Virus record (IMG/VR): IMGVR_UViG_3300021961_000275
Coordinates: 1 to 36,601 of that record
Length of the DNA stretch: 36,601 nucleotides
From: a virus
Strand: one strand, 5' to 3'
The notes below the pieces were generated by a model. That model was given only the letters and a program-made list of their open reading frames with translations. It made no database searches and was not told where the DNA came from. Both the position numbers and the translations under genes were made by a program. Below, one piece after another: positions 6,774 to 20,552 of this stretch. The first letter of the stretch is position 1. Each line of letters opens with the position of its first letter.

Positions 6774-7178
6774 CTAGTTTACCAAGAAAAATTCCCGTTC
6801 ATAGTAATTTCTAACATCCGGAACCATACCTTCCATTGATATGGGCCAGTCTATATTGTCGAAAAGAAAATCATAGACCTCTGGATTTTCATCATATGTT
6901 TTAAAATAAGGATCATTTTGATGTAATAATTGTGGGTCTTTTAGAAGTTCCCAAAAATCTTCACCAAAATCTTTGCTAATCCAATAAGCATAACAGAAAG
7001 CAACAAAGTAACTTTTTGCTGGGTAAATCCACTCATCAATTCGTTCAAAAAAATGACGAAGAGCTTCTTCTTTAACATTATCCGTAATAACAATATCAAC
7101 TTGGTTCAAATCGTCAGAGTGTTCTGTATTTAAACGATGATATATTTCTTGTTTAATTTTCCATTCTCTAGTTTCCAT
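6774..7178 (-). CDS. Unknown acidic/aromatic protein (134 aa), last gene of the enzyme island
   Basis: I do not recognise this family. The chosen start is the ATG at 7178-7176 (METREWKIKQEIYHRLNTEH) because GGAG at 7188-7185 is six bases upstream; a longer reading from 7205 is open but lacks support. The protein is rich in Trp, Tyr, Phe, Asp and Glu (WIYPAKSYFVAFCYAYWISK, FGEDFWELLKD, DNIDWPISMEG) and appears mainly helical, soluble and without metal-site motifs. It overlaps the end of the upstream oxygenase gene by 11 bases, so the two are translationally coupled. It could be an accessory or substrate-recognition partner of that oxygenase. That is inference from coupling only. Confidence 0.65.
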   Translation of the reverse strand: METREWKIKQEIYHRLNTEHSDDLNQVDIVITDNVKEEALRHFFERIDEWIYPAKSYFVAFCYAYWISKDFGEDFWELLKDPQLLHQNDPYFKTYDENPEVYDFLFDNIDWPISMEGMVPDVRNYYEREFFLVN

Positions 7179-7632
7179 TATCATCTCCACAGAACATTGT
7201 AACATTTATACTAGTCCTAGGACTTGTTCCAGTATAGTGTAGAACCCTATGCATTGTATCAGATTCAAATACAATTAATTTCCCTGGTTCAAAATCAACT
7301 GTCTTAACACCATCTTCGACAAGTATCTGTAGTTCACCACCTTGGTTAACACTTCCGTCAATCCATAATATTCCAGCATGAGTGCCTGGCATTACATTAT
7401 GGTTGCCGCCTATACCTTTTTCATTGTGCCAATCAAATCCATTACCAACTCCTGTAAAAGTGGTTCTATTAAACCAGTTATTAGTTATGTTTACTTTGTG
7501 TCCTACAGTTTCCTCTATTAGTTGTGTAAAAGTATCCATATCATTTTCTAATGGGTTGTGAACATTATTACCATCAATAGTTTTTAATTTTTCTATTAAA
7601 GGATTGTTAATATCTACATTATAAACTTGCAT
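7168..7632 (-). CDS. Fe(II)/2-oxoglutarate-dependent oxygenase, HxE type (154 aa)
   Basis: The double-stranded beta-helix signature is clear: FDWHNEKG supplies His69 and Glu71 (HxE in place of the usual HxD), GGELQILVEDG follows, then MHRVLHYTG supplies distal His128, and SPRTSINVTMF gives Arg139, the likely 2-oxoglutarate carboxylate ligand. PGKLIVFES before the distal His is the usual turn. At 154 residues it is a minimal prolyl-4-hydroxylase-like fold. Such enzymes hydroxylate peptides, nucleobases or small molecules; the substrate here is unknown. The ATG at 7632 lies inside the end of the radical SAM gene ending at 7619, and its own 3' end overlaps the next small gene. Tight coupling to a radical SAM protein suggests both act on the same target. 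Confidence 0.82.
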   Translation of the reverse strand: MQVYNVDINNPLIEKLKTIDGNNVHNPLENDMDTFTQLIEETVGHKVNITNNWFNRTTFTGVGNGFDWHNEKGIGGNHNVMPGTHAGILWIDGSVNQGGELQILVEDGVKTVDFEPGKLIVFESDTMHRVLHYTGTSPRTSINVTMFCGDDNGN

Positions 7633-8515
7633 AATAATCTAATAATCCTTTATATCCGTTACAACTATTGTCTAAATCTTTAACGTATCTATAATGTTCT
7701 GTCAAACAATGTCCAAAGTGTCTACAGCTTCTACAAATTTGACTAATACTCGTTTTTTCTTTATTTGTCCAATCTATATATTCTTGCCAATTTTCGAGTT
7801 CCAGGAAGTATTCTCGGTCATTCAAATCAAACTCTAAAACACCATACTTACCATTAGGTGTTATGTAAATATGATCATCCGAGAAAGCATTATATTCACC
7901 ATTCAAACTTTCTATAATTTTTTGTTCATTTATAAAATCAAATTTTTTCTCAACATCACATTCCAACCATTTAATAACGAATTCTTCAAAGTCTTTGTGT
8001 GTCGTTTTGAAGTTATTGGCTTGATTTATAGAATAAGGTTTTATTTCAACAGACTCTATGGATCTACAAGAATTCAACATATTTACCATATAACTGACAG
8101 ACATATTCATAACCTCCGGTGAAGCTAAAATTAATACAGCTATAGGCACAGGAGACTGCATCATATTCATAAAAACTTTTTCATGTTTTTCTCTAGCTGC
8201 AAAGTCATAACTTACCGAAAGATAGAAATCATCTTCAAAAAATCCATCATGTAACATACTAAAATTTGTTATAATGTTTATCTTTTGTTTATAGTGTTTC
8301 CTAATAGTATCTCTTAAACCATAGAAATAATCTTTTTTTAAAGCACCAATTTCACCACCATATAAGTCGATGTGTTCAATGTTTGGTATATTTGATAAAA
8401 GTTTGTCTAATTTTTCGAAAGATATTTTTTTCTGGTCAGATAATTGTTGTTCGGTTAGATAACAAAAATCACATCTAAAATTACAATAGTACCAAGGATT
8501 TAAAGAAACGAACAT
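7619..8515 (-). CDS. Radical SAM protein with partial SPASM/twitch C-terminus (298 aa)
   Basis: The N-terminal CNFRCDFC gives the CX3CX2C cluster (Cys11, Cys15, Cys18) that binds the SAM-cleaving [4Fe-4S], and LYGGEIG (Gly53-Gly54-Glu55) is the SAM-binding GGE motif. Near the C-terminus Cys261, Cys264, Cys270 and Cys285 form a CX2CX5C...C set, shorter than a full SPASM set, so one auxiliary cluster is likely. The family generates a 5'-deoxyadenosyl radical to modify peptides or proteins in many RiPP pathways. The ATG is fused to the TAA of the upstream unknown-family gene (TAATG at 8515), and the downstream oxygenase overlaps its end. It is one of five radical SAM genes in the island. Substrate is inferred to be a protein or peptide, not proven. 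Confidence 0.88.
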   Translation of the reverse strand: MFVSLNPWYYCNFRCDFCYLTEQQLSDQKKISFEKLDKLLSNIPNIEHIDLYGGEIGALKKDYFYGLRDTIRKHYKQKINIITNFSMLHDGFFEDDFYLSVSYDFAAREKHEKVFMNMMQSPVPIAVLILASPEVMNMSVSYMVNMLNSCRSIESVEIKPYSINQANNFKTTHKDFEEFVIKWLECDVEKKFDFINEQKIIESLNGEYNAFSDDHIYITPNGKYGVLEFDLNDREYFLELENWQEYIDWTNKEKTSISQICRSCRHFGHCLTEHYRYVKDLDNSCNGYKGLLDYYASL

Positions 8516-9603
8516 TAAATGATATAACTTTCTAAAAATTTTTTATTTTTTTGATTTTCTAAAGTTGTTTGTATGAAATAATGATTTACGGTTGATAGGT
8601 CTATCGAGAAGAAAGATCCAGATGAGTGATCAAAAGTTGATTCGGCTTCAATTATTTTATAGAGCAAATCATCTGTGAAATCAAAAAAACAAGGTAAAAA
8701 ATCAAGTTTATTTGTATCAGACTTCATAAAAATATAATTGGCTTCTTCAACCCAAGAACTACCAGATATGACAGTAAATTCTTTAAAGGCTTGAATATCT
8801 TTTTCTGTAATATTTTCCAGTTGAATACTATCAACACCATTACCTATAGTTCTAAAAGGTTTTTTCCATATTTCTGATGTTGTAAACAGTTTAGTAAATT
8901 TCGATTCATCGTTTAATATTTCATAAAAATTTGAAAAATCATATTCTCTCGTCAAGTTTAATTTTTTTGTAAAGCCTTTTGTCAATAAATGAACTAGAAA
9001 AATTTCTTTTAATTCGAATAGATATTTAATCAAATCTCTCCTAATTAAATTTTTCATAGATTGTTTTAACTCTTCTTTAAAAGATCCATCATATAAAAAG
9101 GTGGTCATCAAATATTCTATACTAACACAAGATTTCAAATTGTTAAGATTTTCTTTGTAAGAATTTTTATAAATTGTTTTAAATATTTTTTCGTCTAGTG
9201 TATAATAATTCTTATTATCTTTTTTTTCTCCATAATTAAATCTTGAATTATTAAAAATAGTATCTCTAAACAAAAGAGATTTCATTAAAAGAAATATATT
9301 TTCTTCTTTAGGATTTTTAAATATCGATTTTAACCAACATGTCAACAGGAATAGATAATTTGTTTCATCAGCATAAATTATAATTTTTTCATTATAATTT
9401 TTTAAATGATTGAAAAAACCACTTAATGATTTATATTTTTCAAGTAATTCTTCTATACTTAAAAAACAATCTATAGTAGTATTTTTATTTTCTAATTCTT
9501 TGAATATGTACTTAACACCAACTGGAGAAATAAAAATTTTTTTTTGTTGCTCATCTATCAATTCATCCGTGTCTAGATATATTTTGTCAAATAAGTGAAT
9601 CAT
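8515..9603 (-). CDS. Unknown-family protein, copy A (362 aa), paralogue of the 16669-17901 gene
   Basis: I do not recognise the family. The protein starts MIHLFDKIYLDTDELID and is Lys/Phe/Ile/Leu-rich and mostly helical. Several blocks match the protein at 16669-17901 in order: MIHLF-K-YL at the start, IYADETNYLFLLTCW versus IHADLDSYMSLIMNY, SIEYLMTTFLYDGSFKEELK versus SIEYYISSYIYDGSKKEQLK, LTREYDFSNFYEIL versus LKEYNLDNAEEIF, and VNHYFIQ versus INVYLIQ near the end. It sits between two radical SAM genes, ten bases after one and sharing TAATG with the next. No cysteine clusters or oxygenase motifs are seen. A scaffold or leader-binding partner for the radical SAM enzymes is plausible but unproven. 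Confidence 0.75.
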   Translation of the reverse strand: MIHLFDKIYLDTDELIDEQQKKIFISPVGVKYIFKELENKNTTIDCFLSIEELLEKYKSLSGFFNHLKNYNEKIIIYADETNYLFLLTCWLKSIFKNPKEENIFLLMKSLLFRDTIFNNSRFNYGEKKDNKNYYTLDEKIFKTIYKNSYKENLNNLKSCVSIEYLMTTFLYDGSFKEELKQSMKNLIRRDLIKYLFELKEIFLVHLLTKGFTKKLNLTREYDFSNFYEILNDESKFTKLFTTSEIWKKPFRTIGNGVDSIQLENITEKDIQAFKEFTVISGSSWVEEANYIFMKSDTNKLDFLPCFFDFTDDLLYKIIEAESTFDHSSGSFFSIDLSTVNHYFIQTTLENQKNKKFLESYII

Positions 9604-9613
9604 ACTTTATGCC

Positions 9614-10687
9614 CTAATAATTATACTCTTTTATATATTCTGTTGGTTCTAAAATACCGGTCAAGCCATTGGCTTCGATGATTTTTGGTGCCAAATTTTT
9701 CATCATGTTACAATGTTGTTCAACTAGATTATAATCTTTCATATCTTTTATTGTTTTTCTACAACCATTACAAATCTCAAACATAGGACAAGAATAACAA
9801 GACATTTTTAATGATTGTAATTCTTCAACATTTCTAAGAGGAAATATTTTTTTACCAGACATCTCTTGTTTGAAATCTATATTAAAAATTTTATCATCAC
9901 CAAAAGAACCACAACTATAATAGTCACCATCAGGTTGCAAAGTTCTTATACCACCATCACAATTCCTAAACTGTGGGCAAGTAGTTTCCAAATTTTTCAA
10001 TCTTTTGGACATTTGTTTCGTGTTGAATTCCCATTCAGTGAGTCCTCTTTCCCATATATCAACATATGTTTTATAAATTTTAGCTAAAAGATAAGGTCTG
10101 CCCTCTTGACCCATAATAATATTTTTAAATTTTTTAGGAGGTCCGCTACTTACCGCATAATTCAATTTACACTCTACGTTCATTTTTTTAGCTAATTCAA
10201 CATTCTTTATAGCTAAATGTTCATTCTCATCAGTGATAACTGAAATAAAATCTGGTCTATATCCACAATGTTCAAGCATCGCATCAGACACTTTCCAAAA
10301 ATCTTCTTCAGTAAATTCAGATAAATCACCTTTTAATCTTCCTCCACCATATTGAAATGATGTACAAATACCCATTCGTGGATGATTGAATAAATCTTTC
10401 CATTTTTCTGGATTTTTATAGAATGGCCAAAGGTTTGAAGTAAATGATATTGATGCTGATGATTCAATGTCATCTAAATGTTTAATTATTTTCCAATAAT
10501 AGTCTGGATTAACCATTAATGGGTCACCACCATTTACAATTATTGTTCTTGTTTCGGGAAATCTTTCCAAAAATTCAAATATGAACCTTAGAGGTAACAA
10601 AGTGTTTTCTTTTTCAGATATTTTGGTGCTTGAACAAAATGTGCATTTAAAATTACAAAGTTCGGTGGGTTTGATGATTAAGTCCAT
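9614..10687 (-). CDS. Radical SAM/SPASM protein (357 aa)
   Basis: The start chosen is ATG at 10687-10685 (MDLIIKPTELCNFKCTFCSS), because the cluster motif then begins at residue 11 as usual and the ATG overlaps the TAA of the upstream oxygenase gene (TAATG). An upstream extension is open but runs through that gene. CNFKCTFC gives Cys11, Cys15 and Cys18; VNGGDP (about 52-56) is the SAM-binding GGD/E motif. The C-terminus is a full SPASM set: Cys237, Cys243, Cys259, then Cys297, Cys300, Cys306, Cys309 and Cys326, predicting two auxiliary Fe-S clusters. SPASM radical SAM enzymes are mainly peptide- and protein-modifying (anSME, sactisynthases, PqqE). Here an oxygenase precedes it and the unknown-family copy A follows ten bases later. 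The substrate is not known. Confidence 0.9.
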   Translation of the reverse strand: MDLIIKPTELCNFKCTFCSSTKISEKENTLLPLRFIFEFLERFPETRTIIVNGGDPLMVNPDYYWKIIKHLDDIESSASISFTSNLWPFYKNPEKWKDLFNHPRMGICTSFQYGGGRLKGDLSEFTEEDFWKVSDAMLEHCGYRPDFISVITDENEHLAIKNVELAKKMNVECKLNYAVSSGPPKKFKNIIMGQEGRPYLLAKIYKTYVDIWERGLTEWEFNTKQMSKRLKNLETTCPQFRNCDGGIRTLQPDGDYYSCGSFGDDKIFNIDFKQEMSGKKIFPLRNVEELQSLKMSCYSCPMFEICNGCRKTIKDMKDYNLVEQHCNMMKNLAPKIIEANGLTGILEPTEYIKEYNY

Positions 10688-11217
10688 TATAATCTTTCGC
10701 AATAAAATCCAAAATTGGCCACAATTCTGGTAAAGTCTTTTTTCATAGATTCTGCTGAATGTTCCCATTGTTTTTGTTGACTCACCATTACTATATCATA
10801 TTTTTTTGGATGAATAAATCCAGTAATTTCTTTAGAAAAAGAATCTCTAAAACTTATACCTCCACCAATATCTTTATTCGTATCATTAAAATATAAAAGA
10901 AAAAGTAAGTTACAACCTTGATCCAAATCATTATGGAAGTTATCAGCACCAATATCTATACCATTCCAAATAGCATTATAACCTATTTTATATTTTGGCC
11001 AAAACTGACTAACATATTTTTCAGATAAAAATATGTGCGTTTTCGACAACTGTTCTGTTATATCACTATTATTATTGCAACTTCTATAATATTTAGCGCC
11101 ATTATTTTGTTTTTCCCATTGCAATTTTGGTAATAAAGGTTCTAAAAATTGAAAACAGGTCTGATCATTAAAATGTGCAAAACCTTTGGTGAAAAAATCA
11201 ACCGTTTGGACTGACAT
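10687..11217 (-). CDS. Fe(II)/2-oxoglutarate-dependent oxygenase, HxD type (176 aa)
   Basis: NFHNDLDQG supplies the metal pair His95 and Asp97 (numbering from the chosen ATG), WEHSAES gives distal His153, and FTRIVANFGFY gives Arg164, the expected 2-oxoglutarate ligand. NAIWNGIDIGADN before the HxD parallels WDGVD in the two oxygenases at 13184-14183, so the three are related. The ATG at 11217 (MSVQTVDFF) is used; an in-frame ATG at 11223 and GTG at 11235 are alternatives and none has an obvious Shine-Dalgarno. The start overlaps the end of the 99-aa gene and the stop forms TAATG with the radical SAM gene. It probably hydroxylates a protein or peptide; the substrate is unknown. Confidence 0.82.
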   Translation of the reverse strand: MSVQTVDFFTKGFAHFNDQTCFQFLEPLLPKLQWEKQNNGAKYYRSCNNNSDITEQLSKTHIFLSEKYVSQFWPKYKIGYNAIWNGIDIGADNFHNDLDQGCNLLFLLYFNDTNKDIGGGISFRDSFSKEITGFIHPKKYDIVMVSQQKQWEHSAESMKKDFTRIVANFGFYCERL

Positions 11218-11497
11218 AACCATATTTGTATTCACAGTCTAAACTATATTCAGTTTCTTCAATATTATCGACACCTAATAACCCACACAATTGACGATTA
11301 CATTCTCTTATCTGAGCTTTAATGGTATTGGTATAAGGTTCCAAGTTTTCTATTTGTTTCATATAAATTTCATATTTTTCTGGTTCATCTTGGTAATCGT
11401 GTAGTTTTGTAATCCACAAATTGTATATTTCCGCACACAAATCACGTTCTCTGTGGAGTTGTTTTTTTTTCTCAAAAATTTCTTCAACCGTATTCAT
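11198..11497 (-). CDS. Unknown small coiled-coil protein (99 aa)
   Basis: Unrecognised. The sequence starts MNTVEEIFEKKKQLHRERDL and is helical and highly charged for about 75 residues, likely an antiparallel helical hairpin, with a C-terminal tail CGLLGVDNIEETEYSLDCEYKYGY. Four cysteines (two within CNRQLCG) are present but no metal motif is convincing. Its ATG lies 14 bases inside the end of the B12-type radical SAM gene and its end overlaps the next oxygenase, so translation is coupled on both sides. Small helical proteins coupled to radical SAM genes are sometimes recognition partners or additional substrates; which applies here cannot be told. Confidence 0.65.
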   Translation of the reverse strand: MNTVEEIFEKKKQLHRERDLCAEIYNLWITKLHDYQDEPEKYEIYMKQIENLEPYTNTIKAQIRECNRQLCGLLGVDNIEETEYSLDCEYKYGYVSPNG

Positions 11498-13187
11498 ACA
11501 TTGGTTCCTTCAACTCGGAAAATAATTCGTTTAAAATTATTTTTTTGTTTCTTTGTAAAAATTCCTCCACAGCATCATTTCTGAGTTTACCTTTTAATAT
11601 CTTTAAATTTTTTGGCTCGGTCTCAGGATTCAAAATATCTGCAGCTTCTTCACATAACTCTCTAAACTCAGGAAATTCACTCATCACATTAAAACAAGTT
11701 TTGCCGAAATAAGGTACCGAATGCTTATCTATAAACATCGGATAAAGATTTTGCAGTAGCCAGTTTCCACAAAGATTCATCATCCACATTTCAACAACAT
11801 CTTCTCTACTAAATGAATAACAACTTGCAATCGTTTTAAAATAATGTCTTTTCTTAACATAAAGACTTTGTAAGTTATCCACACCATCTTCATCGATAAT
11901 ATCCGTATAGACATCAACAAGTTCTATATTATATTTTTTTAAATATTCTGTTTTTGATAATTCTGAATCAGGTAAAAACATATAGTCGTGTCTAAAACTT
12001 GTCCATGCTTTAAAATTCCAAAGTATAGTCATTTCATCATAAAAGTCTTGTAAAGTAGAACCAGGCATAGCCATTATAAGTTCGATAGCTGGTACGGGAA
12101 AGCCTTGTTTGTGACATTTTTTATAAATGTGTTCACTCAATTTTATCTTATCTTCAAAACTCAAATCGATTCTATTGGCAACTTTCATAGCTTCATTACT
12201 GATGCTCTGTATACTAACAGTAGGTACCACACTAATATAAGAAGGTCCTTCATCAGCCTTTGCAACCTCTCTTTTGGTATTAACTGGACTATGCGTTTCC
12301 GGGCCAGAACCAACAACGTCAAACCACGCATCAATTAACTTAATTCTCCTATTCAAGTCTTTACTTTTCATTGTACTGATGTCGGTTAAATTAACTCTGT
12401 TATCCCACCCAAATTTAAATATCTCAACATCTCTATCGAAGAAAACACCGAAGTTTGCGTCAGTTAAATAGACATCCCTAAAACCAGCTTTCTTTAGAGC
12501 AAGAATATCTCTCTTAACAATATCTAAAGGTTTTTTATAAATTTTTGATTCTATACCTCCACCCCATTCACAGTAAACACATCCATACGGGCATCCTCTT
12601 GTGGTTTCAATTATGCAAAAAGGTTCAAGACTATTTTCTCTTGCGTATTCTCTAGTTTCTTTTAGAAAATCATAATGTTCTTCATAAACACTATAATCGG
12701 GCATAAATTGTGAACAAGTTTTACTACTTCTTAATTCCCAAGATATATCTGAGAAATTTGGTTTTCCTCCAGTTTCAATATAAGAATCAATCAATTCTTG
12801 TAAAAAAACTTCTCCAGGTTTTGTTGCTTGAGAAATAAAATCATAATACCATCTTTTTAATAAAAACGTTTGGTCGTTAGTTCCTATGTGTGGTCCACCC
12901 AAAACACATAAACATTCTTTATCTTTAGATTTTATTAATTTTGCTAGGTCATCACATATGTCGTAATTCCAAATGTAACTTGAAAATAAGTATATGTCTG
13001 CTCGACCCACTTCATCATATATTTCTTGAACAGAAGTATATTTGTCGTATTTGTAGGGTGCTGGTATCCACTCTACCTTATCGTTGTTTTTTCCAAATCT
13101 CTTATAATGAGATTGAAACATCAAATATGCGGCATTATTAGCTAAACACCAGTCGGCATGAGGAGGATTTATAAAAGCAACTTTCAT
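11484..13187 (-). CDS. B12-binding-domain-type radical SAM protein (567 aa)
   Basis: The N-terminal 140 residues start MKVAFINPPH and include IYLFSSYIWN, VLGGPHIG and PGEVFLQEL, the Rossmann-like pattern of B12-binding domains ahead of class-B radical SAM cores; the DxHxxG cobalt-ligating motif is absent, as in many members. The core has ETTRGCPYGCVYCEWGG with Cys199, Cys203 and Cys206, followed by DVYLTDANFG. A roughly 170-residue C-terminal region (FRHDYMFLPDSEL onward) is typical of long members. These enzymes perform methylations or other radical chemistry at unactivated carbons, often in natural-product pathways. ATGA overlaps the upstream oxygenase stop, and the 99-aa gene starts inside its end. 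It is the largest enzyme of the island. Substrate is unknown. Confidence 0.88.
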   Translation of the reverse strand: MKVAFINPPHADWCLANNAAYLMFQSHYKRFGKNNDKVEWIPAPYKYDKYTSVQEIYDEVGRADIYLFSSYIWNYDICDDLAKLIKSKDKECLCVLGGPHIGTNDQTFLLKRWYYDFISQATKPGEVFLQELIDSYIETGGKPNFSDISWELRSSKTCSQFMPDYSVYEEHYDFLKETREYARENSLEPFCIIETTRGCPYGCVYCEWGGGIESKIYKKPLDIVKRDILALKKAGFRDVYLTDANFGVFFDRDVEIFKFGWDNRVNLTDISTMKSKDLNRRIKLIDAWFDVVGSGPETHSPVNTKREVAKADEGPSYISVVPTVSIQSISNEAMKVANRIDLSFEDKIKLSEHIYKKCHKQGFPVPAIELIMAMPGSTLQDFYDEMTILWNFKAWTSFRHDYMFLPDSELSKTEYLKKYNIELVDVYTDIIDEDGVDNLQSLYVKKRHYFKTIASCYSFSREDVVEMWMMNLCGNWLLQNLYPMFIDKHSVPYFGKTCFNVMSEFPEFRELCEEAADILNPETEPKNLKILKGKLRNDAVEEFLQRNKKIILNELFSELKEPMYEYG

Positions 13188-13705
13188 ATGGTATAATCAA
13201 AACTTACAACTCGCCTTTGAATTTTTGTGCTTTCAGCTCGGTGCCAAAATCCTCTAGCATTAGATACACAGAATAAAGAACCAGAGAGTGGTTGAAAGGA
13301 TTTTTCTTCAAAAATACCGTTTTCTTTCCATTTGAATTGGATGGCACCTCCAGTTTCCTTGGCCGTATTGTCATAATAAAATAAAAAGAATATGTCATAT
13401 TGCTCAAACATATCCGTATGCCATCCTTGATTGTCCCTATCAACTCCATCCCATACAGTATATTTCACAAATTTGGAATCATCACCCCAATGTGGGTCAA
13501 CATATTTCGTTTTTATATATTGAGAAGCCACCTTTAAACTATAATTTAACTTTTCTGGTAAATCAATTTCATCGTTATCCCTACTTCTTTCTTCGGTATT
13601 CAGAAGTTTATAATTGTCTAGTGATAAAATGTCCAATAAATCTGGTTCCGACAATTCATAAAAACCATATTGTTCAATTTGTTGTTTGATATTTAAATTC
13701 GACAT
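13184..13705 (-). CDS. Fe(II)/2-oxoglutarate-dependent oxygenase, HxD type (173 aa)
   Basis: VWDGVDRDNQGWHTDMF supplies His96 and Asp98, GGAIQFKWKENG is the central strand pair, FWHRAEST gives distal His155, and QRRVVSFDY provides Arg164 or Arg165 for 2-oxoglutarate. The fold is complete. It is closely similar in layout to the immediately upstream oxygenase (13674-14183), with the same WDGVD, W-H-x-D, H-R-A-S/E-S and R-R pattern at the same residue numbers, so the two are probably a tandem duplication followed by divergence. The ATG at 13705 overlaps the upstream gene by 32 bases; the TGA overlaps the ATG of the B12-type radical SAM gene. Peptide or protein hydroxylation is the likely chemistry; the target is inferred. 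Confidence 0.85.
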   Translation of the reverse strand: MSNLNIKQQIEQYGFYELSEPDLLDILSLDNYKLLNTEERSRDNDEIDLPEKLNYSLKVASQYIKTKYVDPHWGDDSKFVKYTVWDGVDRDNQGWHTDMFEQYDIFFLFYYDNTAKETGGAIQFKWKENGIFEEKSFQPLSGSLFCVSNARGFWHRAESTKIQRRVVSFDYTI

Positions 13706-14183
13706 TTATAATCCTACGTCTTGTTCTACTTCTAGATGCTCTATGTTTATATTTGTCCGATTGGTTTAACCAAACCAATGTTCCGGATGTAGGATGAATA
13801 GTGAATTCTTCTTTTTCATTTTTAAATTCAAGATATCCATCATGCAGACAATCATCCAAATAATATAAAAATGAACAATCTTGTCCGTATCCATTATCAA
13901 CGTGCCATTCTAATGATTTTTTGTCAACACCATCCCATAAATTGGCAGAGACAATGTTTGCTGGCCTGAATGGAGACACATATTCAGTATAAACATAATT
14001 GGCAAAAAAGTTTAAAAAATCTTTTTGGGAGTTTGTATAAGTAATCTTAAAAGGTGAATCACTTACATTAATAATCGGTTCATATTGAATTTCATCAAAT
14101 TTTTTTAAAATCAATTCATCTTTCATTACAGAAACACCATTAATAATATAATTTGTTAAAAACTCATTCTTTTGTTGTATCAT
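13674..14183 (-). CDS. Fe(II)/2-oxoglutarate-dependent oxygenase, HxD type (169 aa)
   Basis: LWDGVDKKSLEWHVDNGYG gives His94 and Asp96 counted from the ATG at 14183, YKHRASRS gives distal His147, and TRRRIINVEF supplies the Arg ligand. The neighbouring 13184-13705 protein has the same motif spacing, so they are paralogues. Start choice is uncertain: ATG at 14183 (MIQQKNEF) keeps an N-terminal segment that aligns with the paralogue, a TTG at 14189 is two codons earlier, and an ATG at 14126 would trim 19 residues. It overlaps the end of the 247-aa unknown gene, placing it third in the unit that begins with the CHxS protein. The nearest plausible substrate is that CHxS protein; this is inference. 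Confidence 0.83.
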   Translation of the reverse strand: MIQQKNEFLTNYIINGVSVMKDELILKKFDEIQYEPIINVSDSPFKITYTNSQKDFLNFFANYVYTEYVSPFRPANIVSANLWDGVDKKSLEWHVDNGYGQDCSFLYYLDDCLHDGYLEFKNEKEEFTIHPTSGTLVWLNQSDKYKHRASRSRTRRRIINVEFKYQTTN

Positions 14184-14907
14184 AACCAAAATATTCTTCT
14201 ATTTGTTGTTTAGACAAAAGGTTTTCAGCCAAATTGAAAGTTATAACGAACAACATATTCTTTTCATTAGCCCAAAAGTCAAATAAATTTTTACCTTTAT
14301 AAATGTTTTTCTTGTAAAAATTTTCGTAAAATTTAAAATTTTCTTGATTTGAATTCAACAATAGAGAGATGAATTGTCCATCTTTTAAGATCGATATGAA
14401 ATTTATTCCAGAATAATCTTCATCGTCCACTACAGGAAATTTTTCAATATAATCTTTAAAAACTTTCCCATTTTTAACTGTATAGACGTTATACAAACTC
14501 AAACTTTGAATTAATGAAACCCATTTTTCTAAAATTTGTTTATTACTTTCTATAAATTTATCAATATTTTTATTTCTATCGAAATAATAATTTGGTTGGT
14601 CAACTTTAGTTTTTTTAGTTTTTGTATTATTGATGAAATATGATAAAATTCCAAACACATCATTTTCAATTGAAGGTAAACTAACTAAAAGTGTTGAATT
14701 CAAATACTCTTTTAAAAATTCTTCATACTCTTTTTGATCGGTGAAAAATACATCACTAGGTATTTCCAAATTACTTAAATATGTTAAAAGTTTTTTTCCT
14801 TTGAGCTCACTTTTATCATAGTTAATATTAAAAAAAACGTCTTTATCTGTAAAATGTTTTTTTAAATCATCCATCGACAAAGGAGCAGTTACTTCAATAA
14901 CATTCAT
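14164..14907 (-). CDS. Unknown protein directly downstream of the CHxS protein (247 aa)
   Basis: Not recognised with confidence. It begins MNVIEVTAPLSMDDLKKHFT and is Lys/Phe/Tyr/Asn-rich, mainly soluble, with short predicted helices and no Cys cluster or HxD site. The N-terminal segment (DVFFNINYDKSELKGKKLLT) and its position beside a CHxS/His-Xaa-Ser-like protein invite comparison with HxsD, the small accessory protein of the HXS system, but it is much longer and I cannot confirm homology by eye. A strong AGGAG (14921-14917), placed in the last codons of the CHxS gene nine bases ahead of the ATG, couples the two. The best guess is a dedicated partner, for example a chaperone or leader-recognition protein, for the CHxS product. 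Confidence 0.7.
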   Translation of the reverse strand: MNVIEVTAPLSMDDLKKHFTDKDVFFNINYDKSELKGKKLLTYLSNLEIPSDVFFTDQKEYEEFLKEYLNSTLLVSLPSIENDVFGILSYFINNTKTKKTKVDQPNYYFDRNKNIDKFIESNKQILEKWVSLIQSLSLYNVYTVKNGKVFKDYIEKFPVVDDEDYSGINFISILKDGQFISLLLNSNQENFKFYENFYKKNIYKGKNLFDFWANEKNMLFVITFNLAENLLSKQQIEEYFGYDTTKE

Positions 14908-14912
14908 AAAAT

Positions 14913-15542
14913 TTATCTCCTACCTCTACTTTTATGACAACTCTGATGACAAGAACTGTGACAAACACTATAACCAGTAATTTGTAATGTGTTGATAGAA
15001 GTGTTCAAAACGGCTACTAGTTGTTCTTTATACTTATTTAATTTTGATGCTGAAATTGTTGCACCTTTAACTGGTTTATCTGGCACAAGAGTAGCTGGTA
15101 AACCAGTTGCTGCTGGAGTGAGTCTAGAAGTAGTATTTAGATGTGTAACCCCAGATTTGGTTTCTGATGATTCCTTTGCGGTAAACCTAGGGACACCGGT
15201 GTGGTAATAAGGGGGATAATTATCACCCGAATAATTATTTGTTGCTGTTATAGTTCTTTTAACACTTACTGTTTGTATATTTGTATAATAATAAGCCTGT
15301 TCCGTCAAAGCATCTACGATAGTGGAAGCTTTGATCTGTTCAGTGGCAAGACCATCTAAATCTGTATTTAATTGTCCCACTGAAGCTGTTCCTTCAGTAT
15401 AAAGGGCGTTGTCAATTTCCGGAAAATGTTTATTAGATTGATGGTATATAATTGTTGGTATAGTAGCTCGAAGATATGCTACAAAAATATCCATAATGTC
15501 GTCACTCTCAATTTCATCATCTTGCGTAAAATTAGTTGCCAT
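14913..15542 (-). CDS. Candidate modified substrate: protein with C-terminal CHxS repeats (209 aa)
   Basis: The C-terminus reads CHSSCHQSCHKSRGRR: three consecutive Cys-His-x-Ser tetrads followed by a basic tail. These are the protein's only cysteines, all within the last 16 residues. The first 190 residues look like a conventional structural protein: an acidic start (DDEIESDDIMD), a helical stretch (IFVAYLRATIPTIIYHQSNK), then Thr/Ser/Tyr-rich beta-type sequence (TITATNNYSGDNYPPYYHTG) and a final helix (ASKLNKYKEQLVAVLNTSIN). The tetrads resemble the His-Xaa-Ser repeats of HxsA, known to co-occur with radical SAM maturases HxsB/HxsC. The gene sits mid-island, after a SPASM radical SAM gene and before an unknown gene and two oxygenases. 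It has its own TATAAATA late motif and an AAGGGAG site (15559-15553). A modified minor virion protein, or alternatively an unmodified metal-binding tail tip, is inferred. Confidence 0.8.
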   Translation of the reverse strand: MATNFTQDDEIESDDIMDIFVAYLRATIPTIIYHQSNKHFPEIDNALYTEGTASVGQLNTDLDGLATEQIKASTIVDALTEQAYYYTNIQTVSVKRTITATNNYSGDNYPPYYHTGVPRFTAKESSETKSGVTHLNTTSRLTPAATGLPATLVPDKPVKGATISASKLNKYKEQLVAVLNTSINTLQITGYSVCHSSCHQSCHKSRGRR

Positions 15543-15546
15543 TTTT

Positions 15547-16599
15547 CTAAGACTCCCTTATAATTATAATCTTTCTTTTACTATTTATACCACTCAAATG
15601 AGACATTAAACTCTTAGGTGCAGCACAAACATCATTTTGCCACTCCAACTGATGGCAATCACCACCACAATAAGAGAATACCTCACAATTATAACATCTA
15701 CTGTCTCCCATTTTTTCACAAGTAATATTATTTATTCTTGTGGGATTATTAATTAATGCTTTCACATCATCATCAATATTACCAAAATATTCTTCTGGAG
15801 CAGAATTTGGACAACCAGAAATTGTTCCGTCAGCATTTATCGTAAAAAGTTTTTCTTCACAGTCCCTACAAAAAGTTCCAGCTTTTGTAAATCCAGATTC
15901 AAACTTCATATAAACATTTTCTAAAAACTCATTTTTAAACCAAGTTCTCGCATTATATTTTTCACTCTGTTTGTGCATTTCCAAAAACCATTTATCCTGT
16001 TCTTCATTGGTAGGAAAAATTTCTGGAAACAGATTTGCATTACCATTTTTAGTTAATCTTTCTAAACTAATTTCATCAAAACCCATTTCTTTTACAAACA
16101 ATAATAATTTTATGGGTTCAATTTCCAACGTATCTTTTGTAACACTCACAAAAAGTTTTAATTTGATACCCTCAGATATCAATCTTCTTACATTATTTTC
16201 CCAAAGACTAATTTGTTTCTGATTCTCAAATCTTATTTTGGGATCCCAGCTTGTTGCTATTGAACCAGAAAGTGGCCCTTTCATAAAATCTATTATCTCA
16301 TCGGTAAGTTTAAAAACTAAATTTGTTGTTACGCCCCATGAAACACTATTCCACAAACTATTACAGGAGTCATAAATTTTTTGCATCTCCTCAACAGGTG
16401 CTAAAAAAGGTTCTCCTCCATGAAACTCAAAATGTATATGATTCAAATCTGGTTTAACATCTCGGAATCTATGAATCCAATCAATTATTTTATCAGTATT
16501 CCAAAATATTTTTTTACCATTTTTTCCGTTGGTAAAACAATGCTTACAATTCAAATTGCAAGTCTCAGTGGTTTTCAAGTAAATATTAACATCTTGCAT
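15547..16599 (-). CDS. Radical SAM/SPASM protein, anSME-like layout (350 aa)
   Basis: The start is taken at ATG 16599-16597, placing CNLNCKHC at Cys14, Cys18 and Cys21; the open extension to 16680 is a hydrophobic artefact reading through the divergent promoter region. FHGGEPFLAP (Gly61-Gly62-Glu63-Pro64) is the SAM site. The C-terminus has a textbook SPASM: Cys244, Cys247, Cys263, Cys294, then Cys302, Cys305, Cys311, Cys315 and Cys325 (CX2CX5CX3CX9C), so two auxiliary clusters are expected. This is the layout of sulfatase-maturase-like and RiPP peptide-modifying enzymes. Its stop is four bases before the ATG of the CHxS protein, making it the prime candidate for that protein's maturase. The end of the gene also contains the CHxS promoter. 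The exact reaction cannot be predicted. Confidence 0.9.
   Translation of the reverse strand: MQDVNIYLKTTETCNLNCKHCFTNGKNGKKIFWNTDKIIDWIHRFRDVKPDLNHIHFEFHGGEPFLAPVEEMQKIYDSCNSLWNSVSWGVTTNLVFKLTDEIIDFMKGPLSGSIATSWDPKIRFENQKQISLWENNVRRLISEGIKLKLFVSVTKDTLEIEPIKLLLFVKEMGFDEISLERLTKNGNANLFPEIFPTNEEQDKWFLEMHKQSEKYNARTWFKNEFLENVYMKFESGFTKAGTFCRDCEEKLFTINADGTISGCPNSAPEEYFGNIDDDVKALINNPTRINNITCEKMGDSRCYNCEVFSYCGGDCHQLEWQNDVCAAPKSLMSHLSGINSKRKIIIIRES
15582..15589 (-). promoter_or_regulatory. Perfect T4 late promoter motif TATAAATA for the CHxS gene
   Basis: The minus strand at 15589-15582 reads TATAAATA, the full T4 late -10 consensus, inside the last codons of the SPASM radical SAM gene. The CHxS start codon is 39 bases downstream and an AAGGGAG ribosome site lies between. 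It would give a separate, probably stronger, late transcript for the candidate substrate. Confidence 0.7.
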
Positions 16600-16628
16600 G
16601 ATTTGTATGATTTGTATGAACGACAACG

Positions 16629-16636
16629 TATAAATA
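16629..16636 (+). promoter_or_regulatory. Perfect T4 late promoter motif TATAAATA for the plus-strand pair
   Basis: The plus strand at 16629-16636 reads TATAAATA followed by G, in the 69-base gap between the divergent genes at 16599 and 16669. The ATG at 16669 is 32 bases downstream with AGGAG at about 16656-16660. It is well placed to drive the only two plus-strand genes of the window. Confidence 0.75.
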
Positions 16637-16668
16637 GACAATAACAATATTATATAGGAGATTACAAG

Positions 16669-17901
16669 ATGATTATTCATCTGTTTAAAAAAGTATACCT
16701 AAATTTGGACTGGGATATTAGTTTGGAAGAAGACAGAATTGTCGTTTCAACAAATCAAGGTTATGGATTAAGTAACGCATTGCTTGATTATGATTATTCT
16801 TATCCAAAAAAACTTGTTGCTTATGGACCAAGTATTGAATATCTTATCGGTGAAAATACTGAAAAAACTGAAGATGAGAGTGTTTACTTTGAAGAAAAGA
16901 TAACACAAATAGGTTTACCAAAGGAAAAATTTGCTTCGGATTATATCGATTTTTTTACAAAAGTATATGAACATTCCGAACAGACGGGAAAACCATTAAC
17001 AATTCATGCTGACTTAGATTCCTATATGTCGTTGATCATGAATTACTACAAAATAATTTTTCCAAATTTAGATTTCAAGTCCTTATCAAGAATATTGAAA
17101 AGTTGTTATTATAGAACAACTTTCATAAAACAATTAAACACTTATACCAAGAAAAGCACCTTTACAGAACAAAAATATTTGGGATATTTTTACGCAAATA
17201 TGTTGGAAAGAATGTCGGAGTTTGAAAAAGAATACGACTTAATTTCCTTCGATTCAAAACAGAAAGAATTAGAAGAATTTTACGATAAAATAAAAGAAAA
17301 TTTGAGTATAGAATACTATATTTCTTCTTACATCTATGATGGTTCAAAAAAAGAACAATTGAAAAAAATTGTGATGTTGATGATTTATAGGCATAGTGAA
17401 GAGATATTAGAAGAACATGTCATGCACTTTCTTACCGCATTTTTGAGAAAACCATTCCAAAGAAAAATGGGATTGAAAGAATATAATTTAGATAACGCCG
17501 AAGAAATTTTTACCGACCCATTAGTTGAAAAATTCTTAAAGACGAGTGTTTGGAGATTTAGTGAAGAATTTGAAAGAATAAATTTTTCCAATTACACAAA
17601 AGAAGATTTGGACGAAATTAAAGCCACTTTAGAAAAAATTAATGACTGTTTTTATGGTCTAACCGAAGAATCTGACCTTGTTGATTTACTGAGATTTAAT
17701 TACTCATATTACCTATTGGACAATAAAATTTCTGATGATGAACTTCAGTCTATTATTAATAAAGAATCTGAAACGGATAACGAAATGTCTATGTGGACCG
17801 CAGAAGATCAAAATACCATTAATGTATATTTGATACAAGAATTTTTTGACATCAAAAATCAAAGTAAAGTGGATTCGTTAAAGCCTTTCCGTTTAAGGTA
17901 A
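16669..17901 (+). CDS. Unknown-family protein, copy B (410 aa), paralogue of the 8515-9603 gene
   Basis: Unrecognised family. It starts MIIHLFKKVYLNLDWDISLE after a good AGGAG site. Blocks aligning with copy A include the MIIHLFKKVYL start, LTIHADLDSYMSLIMNYYK, SIEYYISSYIYDGSKKEQLK, FLRKPFQRKMGLKEYNL, NYTKEDLDEIKA and NTINVYLIQEFF. It is longer by a roughly 48-residue excess, mostly in the first third. It is Glu/Lys/Tyr-rich, probably helical and soluble, with a single cysteine near residue 145 and another in DCFYG, so no Fe-S cluster is likely. It is the first gene of a two-gene plus-strand unit with an HxH oxygenase 13 bases downstream. Two paralogues beside different enzymes suggest a dedicated partner role, one per enzyme set; this is inference. 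Confidence 0.75.
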   Translation: MIIHLFKKVYLNLDWDISLEEDRIVVSTNQGYGLSNALLDYDYSYPKKLVAYGPSIEYLIGENTEKTEDESVYFEEKITQIGLPKEKFASDYIDFFTKVYEHSEQTGKPLTIHADLDSYMSLIMNYYKIIFPNLDFKSLSRILKSCYYRTTFIKQLNTYTKKSTFTEQKYLGYFYANMLERMSEFEKEYDLISFDSKQKELEEFYDKIKENLSIEYYISSYIYDGSKKEQLKKIVMLMIYRHSEEILEEHVMHFLTAFLRKPFQRKMGLKEYNLDNAEEIFTDPLVEKFLKTSVWRFSEEFERINFSNYTKEDLDEIKATLEKINDCFYGLTEESDLVDLLRFNYSYYLLDNKISDDELQSIINKESETDNEMSMWTAEDQNTINVYLIQEFFDIKNQSKVDSLKPFRLR

Positions 17902-17914
17902 TAAAGGAATAAAA

Positions 17915-18529
17915 ATGATTAAAAATATTTTTCCAGTTAATATTGTCGTTAAAGATTACGATTTGTCCGAAGAATTTAATATAGAATTAAAAAAAAGTGT
18001 TGAAACAATTTTTCAAAAACGCTTATTGGATTCTGGACTAACTAGAGATGAATTAGGTGATACTGAATTTCCTCTTTTTACGGAAGAAAACAAAAAAGAA
18101 TTTCCTGTTTTGAACAAAATGTTGGAAATTATGACTGAAGGATTCGTAGAATTGGCAGAATCTTATAATAATAATGAATTAGATAAAAATGATATTCTTT
18201 CATCTGTGCAGAGCAATATTGGCAAACTTCCTTTTATGCAAAAAGGTACTTACAAAAAAACTCATAACCATACAGGCGCTTCAGCTTTTGCCATTTTTTA
18301 TTTAAATGATATTGATAATGATAAACACGGCGGCGAGCTGATTTTAAAAGACCCAGCATTTCATTCGAATCTGGGATTTCACCCTCCAGAAGAACACGGC
18401 ATAGAAACTAAAAAGAATAGGTTGATTGTTGCACCAGGTTACATCTGGCATGAAGTGTCACCTTATTTGGGTGATGAAGAGAGATTGTCCATTGTTATGA
18501 ACTTAGATTTAAAAGTCAACTTACAGTAG
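17915..18529 (+). CDS. Fe(II)/2-oxoglutarate-dependent oxygenase-like protein, HxH type (204 aa)
   Basis: KKTHNHTGASAFAIFYLND supplies His117 and His119 in an HxH arrangement with the YL-D strand of the 2OG-FeII_Oxy_5 type (PF13759-like); GGELILKDP follows, then APGYIWHEVSPYLG gives distal His179 and EERLSIVMNLDLK gives Arg190 for 2-oxoglutarate. This subgroup is common in marine T4-like phages but its substrates are largely unknown. The ATG has AAAGGA seven bases upstream and follows copy B by 13 bases, so the two form one plus-strand unit under the TATAAATA at 16629. Its 3' end overlaps the tail of the minus-strand cupin gene by 14 bases. An HxH metal site may use a different third ligand; activity is inferred. 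Confidence 0.78.
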   Translation: MIKNIFPVNIVVKDYDLSEEFNIELKKSVETIFQKRLLDSGLTRDELGDTEFPLFTEENKKEFPVLNKMLEIMTEGFVELAESYNNNELDKNDILSSVQSNIGKLPFMQKGTYKKTHNHTGASAFAIFYLNDIDNDKHGGELILKDPAFHSNLGFHPPEEHGIETKKNRLIVAPGYIWHEVSPYLGDEERLSIVMNLDLKVNLQ

Positions 18530-18986
18530 AGTAAAATTTTTCCAAACCAAAACTAAACATTAACGATTCAGTATTATTGATGGCTCTGTGCGCCTGTCCT
18601 TTTGGTATGAAAAATTCTTGGTTTTGTTCTATGGTATAAATTTTTCCAAGTGTTTCTATTTGTTTTTGGCCTTCTATGACATATAGTAAAACATCTTCAT
18701 TATCTACATGTTCGGGAAAACTATGTGAATTTTCATATGAACGGAAAACGTGGCAAGTCACAAAACCTTTATGTTTAAATCTTTTCTTTATGTCCAAACA
18801 TATCGAATTTATTTCTTCACCATAATATTCCATATGTTCCAACTTTATAGTTTTTCCATAATAGGAATGTAACTGACCAACGTTAGACAAGTAAATTTGC
18901 CTACCTTGGTTATCTATGATACTAATTAACTGTTTATCATAAACCAAATCCGTATTAACGAATGTGTCAAACTCATCATAATTCAT
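18516..18986 (-). CDS. JmjC-like cupin (156 aa)
   Basis: The C-terminal half is a cupin: SFPEHVDNEDVLLYVIEGQK gives His93 and Asp95 with the H-x-D-x-x-D-V-x-L-x-x-x-x-G spacing of JmjC/Cupin_4 ribosomal-oxygenase-type hydroxylases, and IPKGQAHRAINNTE gives the distal His133. The first 80 residues (MNYDEFDTFVNTDLVYDKQL onward) are not recognisable and are short compared with full JmjC hydroxylases. It may be a minimal protein hydroxylase or a non-enzymatic metal-binding cupin. It follows an HxH oxygenase by eight bases on the same strand and meets the plus-strand oxygenase gene tail to tail with a 14-base overlap. No Shine-Dalgarno is evident before the ATG. Confidence 0.7.
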   Translation of the reverse strand: MNYDEFDTFVNTDLVYDKQLISIIDNQGRQIYLSNVGQLHSYYGKTIKLEHMEYYGEEINSICLDIKKRFKHKGFVTCHVFRSYENSHSFPEHVDNEDVLLYVIEGQKQIETLGKIYTIEQNQEFFIPKGQAHRAINNTESLMFSFGLEKFYSTVS

Positions 18987-18994
18987 ATTTAATA

Positions 18995-19540
18995 TTATTT
19001 TTCTACAATGAAAACATCAAATGGCATTATTATCCTAGGAAAATCAGAATATGATTGCATGGTTTCATGCCACAAATAACTAGGAAATATAACTATATCA
19101 CCCACTTTAACCTCCAATACTTCGACAGAGAATTCTTTTTGAGATATTACATCACTATTATAACCTCTGTTTGCATTGTTTCGTGGGTCATACATGAGTA
19201 AATCACCATCAGTGGCTGAAACATAAAATACACCACTCAAAATACTACAAGCGTGATTATGGTATATGATATTTTTATGATCACTAGCATGAATTTTTAT
19301 ACTGAATTCATCTTTATATTCCCAAACCTCACTTAAATATTCTTTAACCTTTTCGTTGATATAGTCTACAACTTCTTCAAGTTCCTTTTCGTTACTCAAA
19401 TTTATGTTGGTGTAATTTGTTGGGAAATTATGCTCTTTGAATGAAGACACCAAAAAATTAAAACAATTTTGAATCGTATTTGTATTAGAAATATTATCTA
19501 TCAGTATCCTAGTTGGCCAAAGACTTTTTATCATCGACAT
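18995..19540 (-). CDS. 2OG-Fe(II) oxygenase of the PF13759 (2OG-FeII_Oxy_5) type (181 aa)
   Basis: The protein begins MSMIKSLWPTRILIDNISN, the short N-terminal pattern (S-L-W-P-T) usual in this family. IIYHNHACSILSGVFYV supplies His94 and His96 and the family's SGVFYV strand; LLMYDPRNNANRG follows; VKVGDIVIFPSYLWHETMQSY gives distal His158, and FPRIIMPFDVF gives Arg169. The family is frequent in T4-like cyanophages and pelagiphages; its biological substrate is not established. The ATG at 19540 has AGGAAG about ten bases upstream and lies inside the end of the radical SAM gene ending at 19509, so the two are co-translated. A peptide or protein target shared with that enzyme is inferred. Confidence 0.88.
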   Translation of the reverse strand: MSMIKSLWPTRILIDNISNTNTIQNCFNFLVSSFKEHNFPTNYTNINLSNEKELEEVVDYINEKVKEYLSEVWEYKDEFSIKIHASDHKNIIYHNHACSILSGVFYVSATDGDLLMYDPRNNANRGYNSDVISQKEFSVEVLEVKVGDIVIFPSYLWHETMQSYSDFPRIIMPFDVFIVEK

Positions 19541-20552
19541 ATTTAAAAACTTCCTTATATAAACAAGTGTTCATATCCTCTTCTATAAATTTAAAATCAT
19601 GTTTTATGAAGCAAGTAAAAGAACACTTTTGATAATATTCACAAGAAAAACAATTGTATTTTTCGATAAAATTCTGGATAATTTTTGGTGAACCCACTTC
19701 GTCAGATTTTCTATCAGCCAAAAATACAGAACCAGAACACCCTTCCGGTATAAAATTATTTTTCAATACAGTAAAATTGTTGCCTCTTGTGCAAGTCATT
19801 TTGTTTTGTTTCTCTTTACCAACAAAAGATGCAACATTCAAAACGTTAGGATACTTGTCAACTAACAATTTATAAAACTCAAAGGTGTTTTTTTCAGATG
19901 GCATCTGAAACTTATTAGTTTCAGTTTTTCCAGCAGGCAAAAAAGAATCAAAATCAATAACACAATTTTGATAGATATGATCAAAAAAATCATCACCTCT
20001 CATCAACGATTGTATATTTTGTTTAGTCAAAACAACATTGACTGTTTTAATTTTATCTTTAAATATTTGAAAGTTGTTTTTAAATACGTTCAGAGTTTCG
20101 CTGTTAAACCTACCAGCCATGTCATAAGAACTGGAAATATTTAAATTGTTTTTCTCCAAAAAGTTAAATATTTTTTCCGTCTGTGTGAAAATCAAATTAG
20201 TAACAAAATTAAAAATTACTTTCTTATCCTTATCGACCTTTTCTATAACTTCATCAATAAATTTTTGATAAATGTCTAGATAACCCTTTTCTATCCAATA
20301 ATCTTGAAATAATTCTCCACCCATGGTATGAATGTAAAACTCTTTAGACCTTCGATTATTATTAATAAAGTCAACAACAAGAGGAACCTTTTTCATTATT
20401 TCTTCTTCAGTTGATCCGGTCATGTCATCGTGTTCTTGTGGGCAAAAAGCACAAGACAAATTACAATGGTCAAATAAAATCAAAACAATTTCACTGTGGT
20501 CTACAACCTTAGAATTAATTATATTATAAAAAGAAATTGGTTGTTCAATCAT
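19509..20552 (-). CDS. Radical SAM/SPASM protein (347 aa), first gene of the enzyme island
   Basis: FDHCNLSCAFCPQE gives Cys30, Cys34 and Cys37; HTMGGELFQDYW (Gly78-Gly79-Glu80) is the SAM-binding motif. The SPASM set is Cys254, Cys272, then Cys301, Cys304, Cys310, Cys314 and Cys330 (CX2CX5CX3C...C), consistent with auxiliary Fe-S clusters. The N-terminal 28 residues ahead of the cluster motif (MIEQPISFYNIINSKVVDHS) are longer than in the other radical SAM genes here and fold into the core. No clear Shine-Dalgarno or late motif lies in the 29-base gap after fibre 1, so read-through from fibre 1 is likely. An HxH oxygenase overlaps its 3' end. The target is probably a protein or peptide; reaction type is unknown. 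Confidence 0.9.
   Translation of the reverse strand: MIEQPISFYNIINSKVVDHSEIVLILFDHCNLSCAFCPQEHDDMTGSTEEEIMKKVPLVVDFINNNRRSKEFYIHTMGGELFQDYWIEKGYLDIYQKFIDEVIEKVDKDKKVIFNFVTNLIFTQTEKIFNFLEKNNLNISSSYDMAGRFNSETLNVFKNNFQIFKDKIKTVNVVLTKQNIQSLMRGDDFFDHIYQNCVIDFDSFLPAGKTETNKFQMPSEKNTFEFYKLLVDKYPNVLNVASFVGKEKQNKMTCTRGNNFTVLKNNFIPEGCSGSVFLADRKSDEVGSPKIIQNFIEKYNCFSCEYYQKCSFTCFIKHDFKFIEEDMNTCLYKEVFKYVDDKKSLAN

Follow-up and report, generated by a model that had tools for sequence, protein, structure and literature searches.

Why would a T4-like phage place a large set of radical S-adenosylmethionine (SAM) enzymes among the genes of its tail? The question is raised by IMG/VR virus record IMGVR_UViG_3300021961_000275, a 36.6-kb record of a T4-like phage that was analyzed over its whole length of 36,601 nucleotides (hereafter the window). 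Between its tail-fibre and baseplate genes lies an island of enzyme genes, for which an earlier note on this DNA suggested a system resembling those that make ribosomally synthesized and post-translationally modified peptides (RiPPs), here acting on a virion protein. The suggestion gains support: profile searches confirm the enzymes, and their co-occurrence is kept in related and unrelated phages. All the gene calls named in that note are present at the same positions, and the gene for the probable substrate, PRE (14913-15542), is absent from it. The explanation considered probable is that the island is a phage-encoded cassette for a RiPP-like modification, made chiefly to PRE, a virion protein associated with the tail or baseplate, at its C-terminal (CHxS)n tail.

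The PRE protein and its C-terminal tail

PRE comprises 209 amino acids, is encoded on the minus strand (14913..15542) between the island genes M and K, and has the C-terminus CHSSCHQSCHKSRGRR. The adjoining gene M, whose product is the best conserved of the maturases, encodes a radical SAM/SPASM enzyme (15547..16599, minus strand, in an open reading frame (ORF) that extends to 16680) matching PF04055, TIGR04085 and phrog_1802 (1.6e-67); its alignment contains the cluster motif and invariant C-terminal cysteines. The last 16 residues of PRE form a conserved tail of CHxS repeats and RxRR (14913..14963 with the stop codon, minus strand), recognized from column counts and codon variation. The consensus, CHxSCHxSCHxSRGRR, is nearly unchanged, and PRE of the window terminates in ITGYSVCHSSCHQSCHKSRGRR. 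In the six frames of the window, the PRE tail is the only place where CH..CH is found. PRE matches no Pfam or NCBIfam family, the NCBIfam models for HxsA and CXXX-repeat peptides included. A heme c site (CX2CH) was considered and ruled out, as the tail repeats are spaced CX3CH.

A scan of IMG/VR with a degenerate DNA pattern for CHxxCHxxCHxxRxR returned at least 120 stretches, and the locus counts given below rest on the matches listed. More than 100 of the listed stretches hold ORFs terminated by the motif; the rest are mostly Cys/His-rich low-complexity sequence or matches in the middle of an ORF. The motif ORFs end exactly after RxRR, one residue past the search pattern, and tail positions left free by the pattern are conserved as well: over 129 unique ORFs, Ser occurs at -13 in 118, Gly at -3 in 118 and the final Arg in all 129, the latter having been fixed in the pattern only for the few ORFs from a genome scan. 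The 48-nucleotide tails are distinct in 123 of 127 cases and encode Ser by both TCN and AGY codons. Because the tail DNA is this varied and draws on both Ser codon families, selection acts on the protein. The PRE bodies fall into two main families (75 and 38) and small ones, and in the family of the window the mean pairwise identity is 29% for the body versus 81% for the tail. Outside the tail, 90 of 127 PREs have no Cys. IMG/VR scans for close PRE relatives and with the single M sequence found nothing, and tblastn of PRE in isolated phages gave weak matches to T4-type tail fibres alone (E of 2 or worse), because the bodies diverge.

The predicted structure of PRE has a mean predicted local distance difference test (pLDDT) score of 76.5 and a mixed helix/strand body, with scores of 65 and 55 for the last two blocks. 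Such a model would suit a flexible tail that is offered to an enzyme. Fold matches of PRE in BFVD include a 296-amino acid protein of phage Atu_ph07, which is the PRE of that phage, and three proteins of Myoviridae sp. ctijX18. The latter (A0A8S5USJ7, A0A8S5USJ8 and A0A8S5USV2; 500-660 amino acids) have a weakly PRE-like fold. A PRE variant with four CHxN repeats, CHSNCHSNCHSNCHTNRSRR, is encoded on a 231-kb phage contig (L043:8105-8878) with four M-like matches, and tandem PREs (about 125-140 amino acids, of a different body family) occur in 20 listed loci, including L010, L035, L058 and L087. A tandem PRE pair follows an ORF of about 2000 amino acids in L135 and L138.

Co-occurrence of PRE with the cassette enzymes

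The earlier note had proposed looking for the same gene set in other phages, and the cassette is indeed found again in more than 100 viral loci among the matches listed. Oriented on PRE, with the letters of the window genes, the genes usually run cupin - M - PRE - K - D - (2OG) - R - (B12 radical SAM) - C/E - (2OG), where 2OG stands for 2-oxoglutarate-Fe(II) oxygenase and the letters for radical SAM subclasses are indicative only. M lies directly upstream of PRE in 62 of 71 testable listed loci; K is present in 80 of 87, the cupin in 50 of 57 and D homologues in 50 of 59. When M is not adjacent, it is mostly elsewhere on the listed contig (23 of 29). A control is provided by the 19 listed loci without a called PRE: 18 have no M, K, cupin or D, and in the nineteenth (L114) PRE is cut by the contig end.

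Selection by motif could itself create the link between M and PRE, and the search was therefore repeated with the M alignment alone. This search of viral contigs gave 369 relatives, of which the best 80, those closest to M, were fetched. The ORF next after M bears the strict motif in 66 of these best 80 of 369 loci, the motif is elsewhere on the contig in 9, and the remaining 5 end inside the PRE ORF; thus all 75 uncut loci have the motif. The T4-type baseplate family phrog_219 is present in 21 of 36 larger contigs, and others fit phiKZ-like and Rak2-like phages by kin. Occurring in T4-like, phiKZ-like and Rak2-like phages, the cassette crosses unrelated lineages with its gene order kept.

M homologues of 42-49% identity are encoded by the isolated jumbo phages SURPRISE13, Atu_ph07, FLC6, FLC8, Phosso and DT01. 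The gene after M in each is annotated as a "hypothetical protein" and has the same tail (CHSSCHTSCHGSRGRR, CHSSCHASCHNSRSRR, CHTSCHASCHSSRSRR, CHTSCHTSCHSARGRR). A cupin precedes M in four isolated phages, and the gene at that place in FLC6 and FLC8 is either annotated as a cupin or without annotation. Full-length M, R-type and C/E-type radical SAM proteins are confined, among 50,697 phage records, to the same seven, two of which (MF403008 and NC_042013) are the same phage, and all seven have a motif-bearing PRE. Phass-1 was rejected as a carrier of M, its match being weak and partial and the motif absent. The E-related C/E-type enzyme encoded by L062, a viral contig from a metagenome, shares 59-62% identity with its counterparts in the isolated jumbo phages.

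The probable connection of PRE with the virion comes from Atu_ph07. The published description of this phage reports 131 virion-associated proteins by electrospray ionization tandem mass spectrometry, mostly in three clusters, one of which is coding sequences 170-215; the far end of that cluster is the major capsid protein, gp215, and another cluster starts with a tail fibre, gp31 (PMC6102473). As gp215 and gp31 were both detected, it seems that the clusters begin and end with proteins that were detected. PRE of Atu_ph07 is gp170, at the edge of the cluster, and the numbering fits gp181 as baseplate, gp198 as portal and gp204 as prohead core. K (gp169) and further radical SAM genes are outside the virion cluster. 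From the published cluster we infer that PRE of Atu_ph07 is virion-associated.

The motif scan of genomes gave 14 contigs. Three of them, from metagenome-assembled genomes of Bdellovibrionota (L230, L231 and L232), carry the cassette on the chromosome amid housekeeping genes (acyl-CoA dehydrogenase and 3-hydroxyacyl-CoA dehydrogenase; cbb3 oxidase genes; an AMP-binding ligase). These cassettes have M, PRE, K and R and, in part, C/E, H and 2OG genes; a cupin was not detected in the three stretches. A fibre-like gene with the Peptidase_S74 chaperone domain is upstream in two of the three copies, and S74 fibres are among the "mosaic adhesive trimeric" proteins, which Bdellovibrio uses on prey (PMC10769870). 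Such copies are rare, with the pattern matched in 3 of 129 genomes of one order. Sharing of the module between phages that infect Gram-negative bacteria and predators of such bacteria would agree with a function at the target cell's outer surface.

Enzymes and companion genes of the island

PF04055 matches exactly five places in the record, and these are the five genes (7619, 9614, 11484, 15547 and 19509) that had been read as radical SAM genes from their motifs. As also read before, CX3CX2C is present in all five and SPASM-like C-terminal cysteines are present in four (C, E, M and R). M (34.1 bits) and E (28.5 bits) exceed the TIGR04085 SPASM cut-off of 27 bits; C and R have the cysteines only. 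E is a radical SAM/SPASM protein (9614..10687, minus strand, ORF to 10768) over cut-off for both PF04055 and TIGR04085, and homology places the true start of the E and M ORFs at an internal Met28 (about 16599 for M). R (19509..20552, minus strand) has CX3CX2C, SPASM-like C-terminal cysteines and a phrog_1802 match of 4.4e-33; C (7619..8515, minus strand, 298 amino acids) has CX3CX2C and a phrog_1802 match of 3e-32. By PF04055 alone, C and R are below cut-off, yet they match phrog_1802 at the 1e-32 level. A viperin-like antiviral role for C was rejected (NF038283, 32.3 bits against a cut-off of 180). H (11484..13187, minus strand) is a radical SAM protein of the B12-binding type, kin to KedN5-like C-methyltransferases. 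It is over cut-off for PF04055, scores 22.9 bits with the B12-binding family PF02310 (cut-off 32.1), and matches the KedN5-type methylcobalamin radical SAM model NF033712 at 3.4e-21 and 75.1 bits (cut-off 700).

The best curated profile kin of M are modifiers of peptides and proteins: the sulfatase maturase model TIGR03942 matches 25 of 26 M proteins (best 4.6e-18), DynA 23 and PapB 23. PDB relatives are sulfatase maturases (4k36-4k39) and other radical SAM proteins. M scores 43.3 bits with the anaerobic sulfatase maturase model TIGR03942 (cut-off 349), 58.1 with DynA (450), 53.9 with PapB (340) and 42.4 with DarE (650); for the His-Xaa-Ser (Hxs) system, HxsB scores 33.3 with M (370) and HxsC 28.3 with E (267.9), and PRE has no HxsA match. 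The arrangement by which RiPP systems with SPASM enzymes are recognized, a precursor with a conserved core adjoining its maturase across genomes, is found here. The cassette shares with the PapB ranthipeptide (CX3D repeats), DynA and DarE systems the pairing of a radical SAM/SPASM enzyme with a neighbouring protein whose C-terminal segment contains Cys and is repeated. It differs in its substrate, which is not a short peptide but a protein of 125-364 amino acids with a folded body, in that no exporter or leader protease is seen, and in scores far under the cut-offs. The CXXX spacing of (CHxS)n recalls the CXXX-repeat maturases (TIGR04115), for which there is a weak profile match under cut-off. 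HxS triplets in the PRE tail and weak matches likewise recall the Hxs systems (TIGR03977/TIGR03978), from which the tail differs in having Cys between the HxS repeats and the matches in being under cut-off. Anaerobic sulfatase maturases are the commonest profile match of M and are alike in two-cluster SPASM architecture and in acting on a protein rather than a peptide; the differences are that the substrate here is no sulfatase, that CxPxR is absent from the PRE tail and that M is under the cut-off.

Six further genes had been assigned as 2OG-Fe(II) oxygenases, and all six have HxD, HxE or HxH with a distal His and match PF13640 or PF13759. Five are on the minus strand: B (7168..7632; HNE...H; PF13640 at 27.1 bits, cut-off 27), F (10687..11235; HND...H...R; PF13640 at 1.9e-4, under cut-off with the motif present), I (13184..13705; HTD...H...R; PF13640 at 9.8e-5, likewise under cut-off with the motif present), J (13674..14189; HVD...H...R; PF13640 at 29.7 bits, over cut-off) and Q (18995..19540; HNH...H...R; PF13759 at 58 bits, over cut-off). 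The sixth, O, is on the plus strand (17915..18529; HNH...H...R; PF13759 at 35.6 bits, over cut-off). Several of these oxygenases match phrog_274, whose label "DNA endonuclease V" may be wrong. The JmjC-like cupin of the earlier note also holds: P (18516..18986, minus strand) matches PF08007 (JmjC_2) and PF02311 (AraC_binding) over cut-off and also Cupin_2, and elsewhere it is usually upstream of M.

K, the conserved companion directly downstream of PRE (14164..14907, minus strand; phrog_20767, 3.3e-54), is of unknown function. Its AlphaFold2 model has a pLDDT of 89.6, and against the PDB there is no Foldseek match at E 0.001, the best Z being 3.9 over residues 1-57; K is perhaps a recognition partner, which is a guess. 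D (8515..9603, minus strand) represents the MxHLFxKVYL family, of unknown function, with homologues across the listed loci; N (16669..17901, plus strand) is a second copy of the family, 26% identical to D in alignment. Two small proteins are of unknown function: G (11198..11497, minus strand) is beside H in few loci, with homologues in L059, L116, L130 and L231, and A (6774..7205, minus strand; phrog_20737, 6.4e-44) is at the cassette end, with 17 direct phmmer matches among the loci, window copies included. Labels from a hidden Markov model seeded with gene A were not used, the model having drifted into radical SAM proteins (30 of 46 best-match ORFs had CX3CX2C).

The placement of the island amid tail-fibre genes, already read from the sequence, agrees with PHROGs, which give a T4-type baseplate wedge and tail-fibre flanks. 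The gp6-type baseplate wedge of the window is phrog_219 (5.9e-133), with a second baseplate wedge match to phrog_438. The gene at 1263..6191 (minus strand) matches a tail fiber protein family (phrog_13173, 3.7e-5), and the tail-fibre-like gene at 20582..23965 (minus strand) matches phrog_22593, of unknown function, with AN-AY repeats read in its sequence. These flanking fibres contain 0 and 1 Cys, respectively. Most island genes abut or overlap, as the earlier note had observed in treating them as one unit; N and O (16669-18529), however, are on the opposite strand, and the island is thus not one operon or transcription unit. The inverted segment (16669-18529) consists of the second D-family gene and one 2OG oxygenase. 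The GC content of the island (7001-20000) is 0.26-0.33 with mostly strongly negative skew, and that of the fibre gene below it is 0.36-0.41; the low GC and the skew relative to the flank are compatible with transfer of a module.

A proposed pathway and its alternatives

In the proposed pathway, M would recognize PRE and alter its flexible (CHx[S/N])3-x-R-x-R-R tail, the Cys-His repeats being the likeliest site, with the cupin, K and D as dedicated helpers. The other radical SAM enzymes (R, C, E and sometimes a B12 enzyme) and the 2OG oxygenases would carry out further, lineage-variable tailoring of the PRE tail or of neighbouring fibre proteins. PRE would then be built into the virion, where the finished Arg-rich tip, whether rigid, metal-binding or reactive, may act at the Gram-negative surface in attachment or entry. 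Several points weigh against this explanation. M is far under every curated equivalog cut-off, so that its product cannot be named nor a chemistry transferred; a crosslink, Cys oxidation and a metal site are all candidates. Action of M on PRE is a prediction from sequence comparison, and the proposed virion location of PRE derives from a cluster boundary given in the text of the Atu_ph07 paper (PMC6102473). The PRE fold has no match in the PDB, no Pfam match to an RRE/PqqD-like recognition element was found among the cassette genes, and no peptidase, leader-processing protease, transporter or exporter was found among the 18 cassette genes with Pfam and PHROGs. The IMG/VR loci are also partly related, and their counts are not independent events. 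As a virion protein, the substrate might need neither leader protease nor exporter.

The CHxSCHxSCH tail could instead be an unmodified tip that binds Fe, Zn or Cu, with the radical SAM enzymes acting on a fibre protein, a glycan or a small molecule. Cys/His repeats are natural metal ligands, the tips of T4 gp37 use HxH iron sites, and the cupin and the 2OG enzymes, too, are metal proteins. Such a plain metal site, however, would have no need of a dedicated maturase, and the pairing of M with the tail is essentially one to one; moreover, the near absence of Cys from the neighbouring fibres makes PRE the obvious Cys substrate, and this alternative is improbable. A related question concerns the chemistry within the proposed modification of PRE, namely whether M oxidizes a tail Cys to formylglycine or a thioaldehyde as its anaerobic sulfatase maturase kin do. 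The prevalence of TIGR03942 matches (25 of 26 M proteins) speaks for this, as does the last repeat, CHxSR, with the C-x-x-x-R spacing of the sulfatase motif CxPxR. DynA, PapB and DarE nevertheless score comparably, all scores are far under cut-off, and the third position has no conserved Pro or Ala; formylglycine is accordingly rated unlikely, if somewhat less so than the bare metal tip.

PRE might also be a carrier precursor in the manner of PqqA or mycofactocin, its tail being modified and then cut off to serve in the infection as a natural product or small cofactor. Known families of SPASM enzymes produce cofactors of this sort, and a B12 radical SAM enzyme with oxygenases resembles natural-product tailoring. 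PREs of 125-364 amino acids with folded bodies, encoded beside structural genes, do not fit well, no protease gene is seen in the cassette, and PRE of Atu_ph07 is at the edge of a virion protein cluster; the carrier role is thus given only a small chance. Least probable, to the point of being hardly credible, is a role of the enzymes in raising host metabolism as products of auxiliary metabolic genes, which is how many radical SAM genes in one phage have been read before: Campylobacter phages CP220 and CPt10 have 11-12, ascribed to host metabolism (PMC2853527). Those phages are likewise T4-like, with five radical SAM genes in a swappable block (PMC2853527), and they differ in that no Campylobacter phage was among the tblastn matches of M, R, PRE or the C/E-type enzymes. 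A metabolic role is at odds with a synteny that stays fixed over hosts from Agrobacterium to Burkholderia and that joins the enzymes to a small protein of the structural block bearing a near-invariant tail. It is also at odds with enzyme relatives that are mostly modifiers of peptides and proteins.

Modification of the PRE tail by M would place the cassette with a known kind of system, a radical SAM maturase with a genetically linked substrate; new are the type of substrate, the motif, the gene set and the setting. Phage 332-Vera has eight radical SAM genes, termed "highly unusual". In jumbo phages such as FLC6 and S13, radical SAM, cupin and 2OG genes have been annotated singly (PMC8066314, PMC11898562, PMC12390700). 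Jumbo phages with phrog_1802, phrog_35144 and phrog_20767 (Atu_ph07, FLC6, S13, DT01) have the same cassette in those checked, and in the papers found on them no link was seen from the enzymes to the CHxS-tailed "hypothetical protein". No published description of such virion decoration was found in the literature searched, which was without preprints and most subscription papers. We know of no phage structural protein built by a dedicated radical SAM pathway.

A wider proposal is offered tentatively, with rather less confidence than the cassette and its substrate: that phages and a few predatory Bdellovibrionota install non-natural chemistry made by radical SAM enzymes on the CHxS tail of a fibre or baseplate protein, that the tip acts on Gram-negative envelopes, and that the module has moved among T4-like, phiKZ-like and Rak2-like phages and predator chromosomes. 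If true, phage tails and predatory bacteria would be linked by a common surface tool, and the chemical repertoire of virions would not stop at the 20 amino acids but reach well past them. A function could be assigned to phage genes, in the hundreds, that now lack annotation, and research and biotechnology would have at their disposal new enzymes whose substrate, 16 residues long, is simple and defined genetically. Why radical SAM genes are so abundant in some jumbo phages is a puzzle that would then have a concrete, testable answer.

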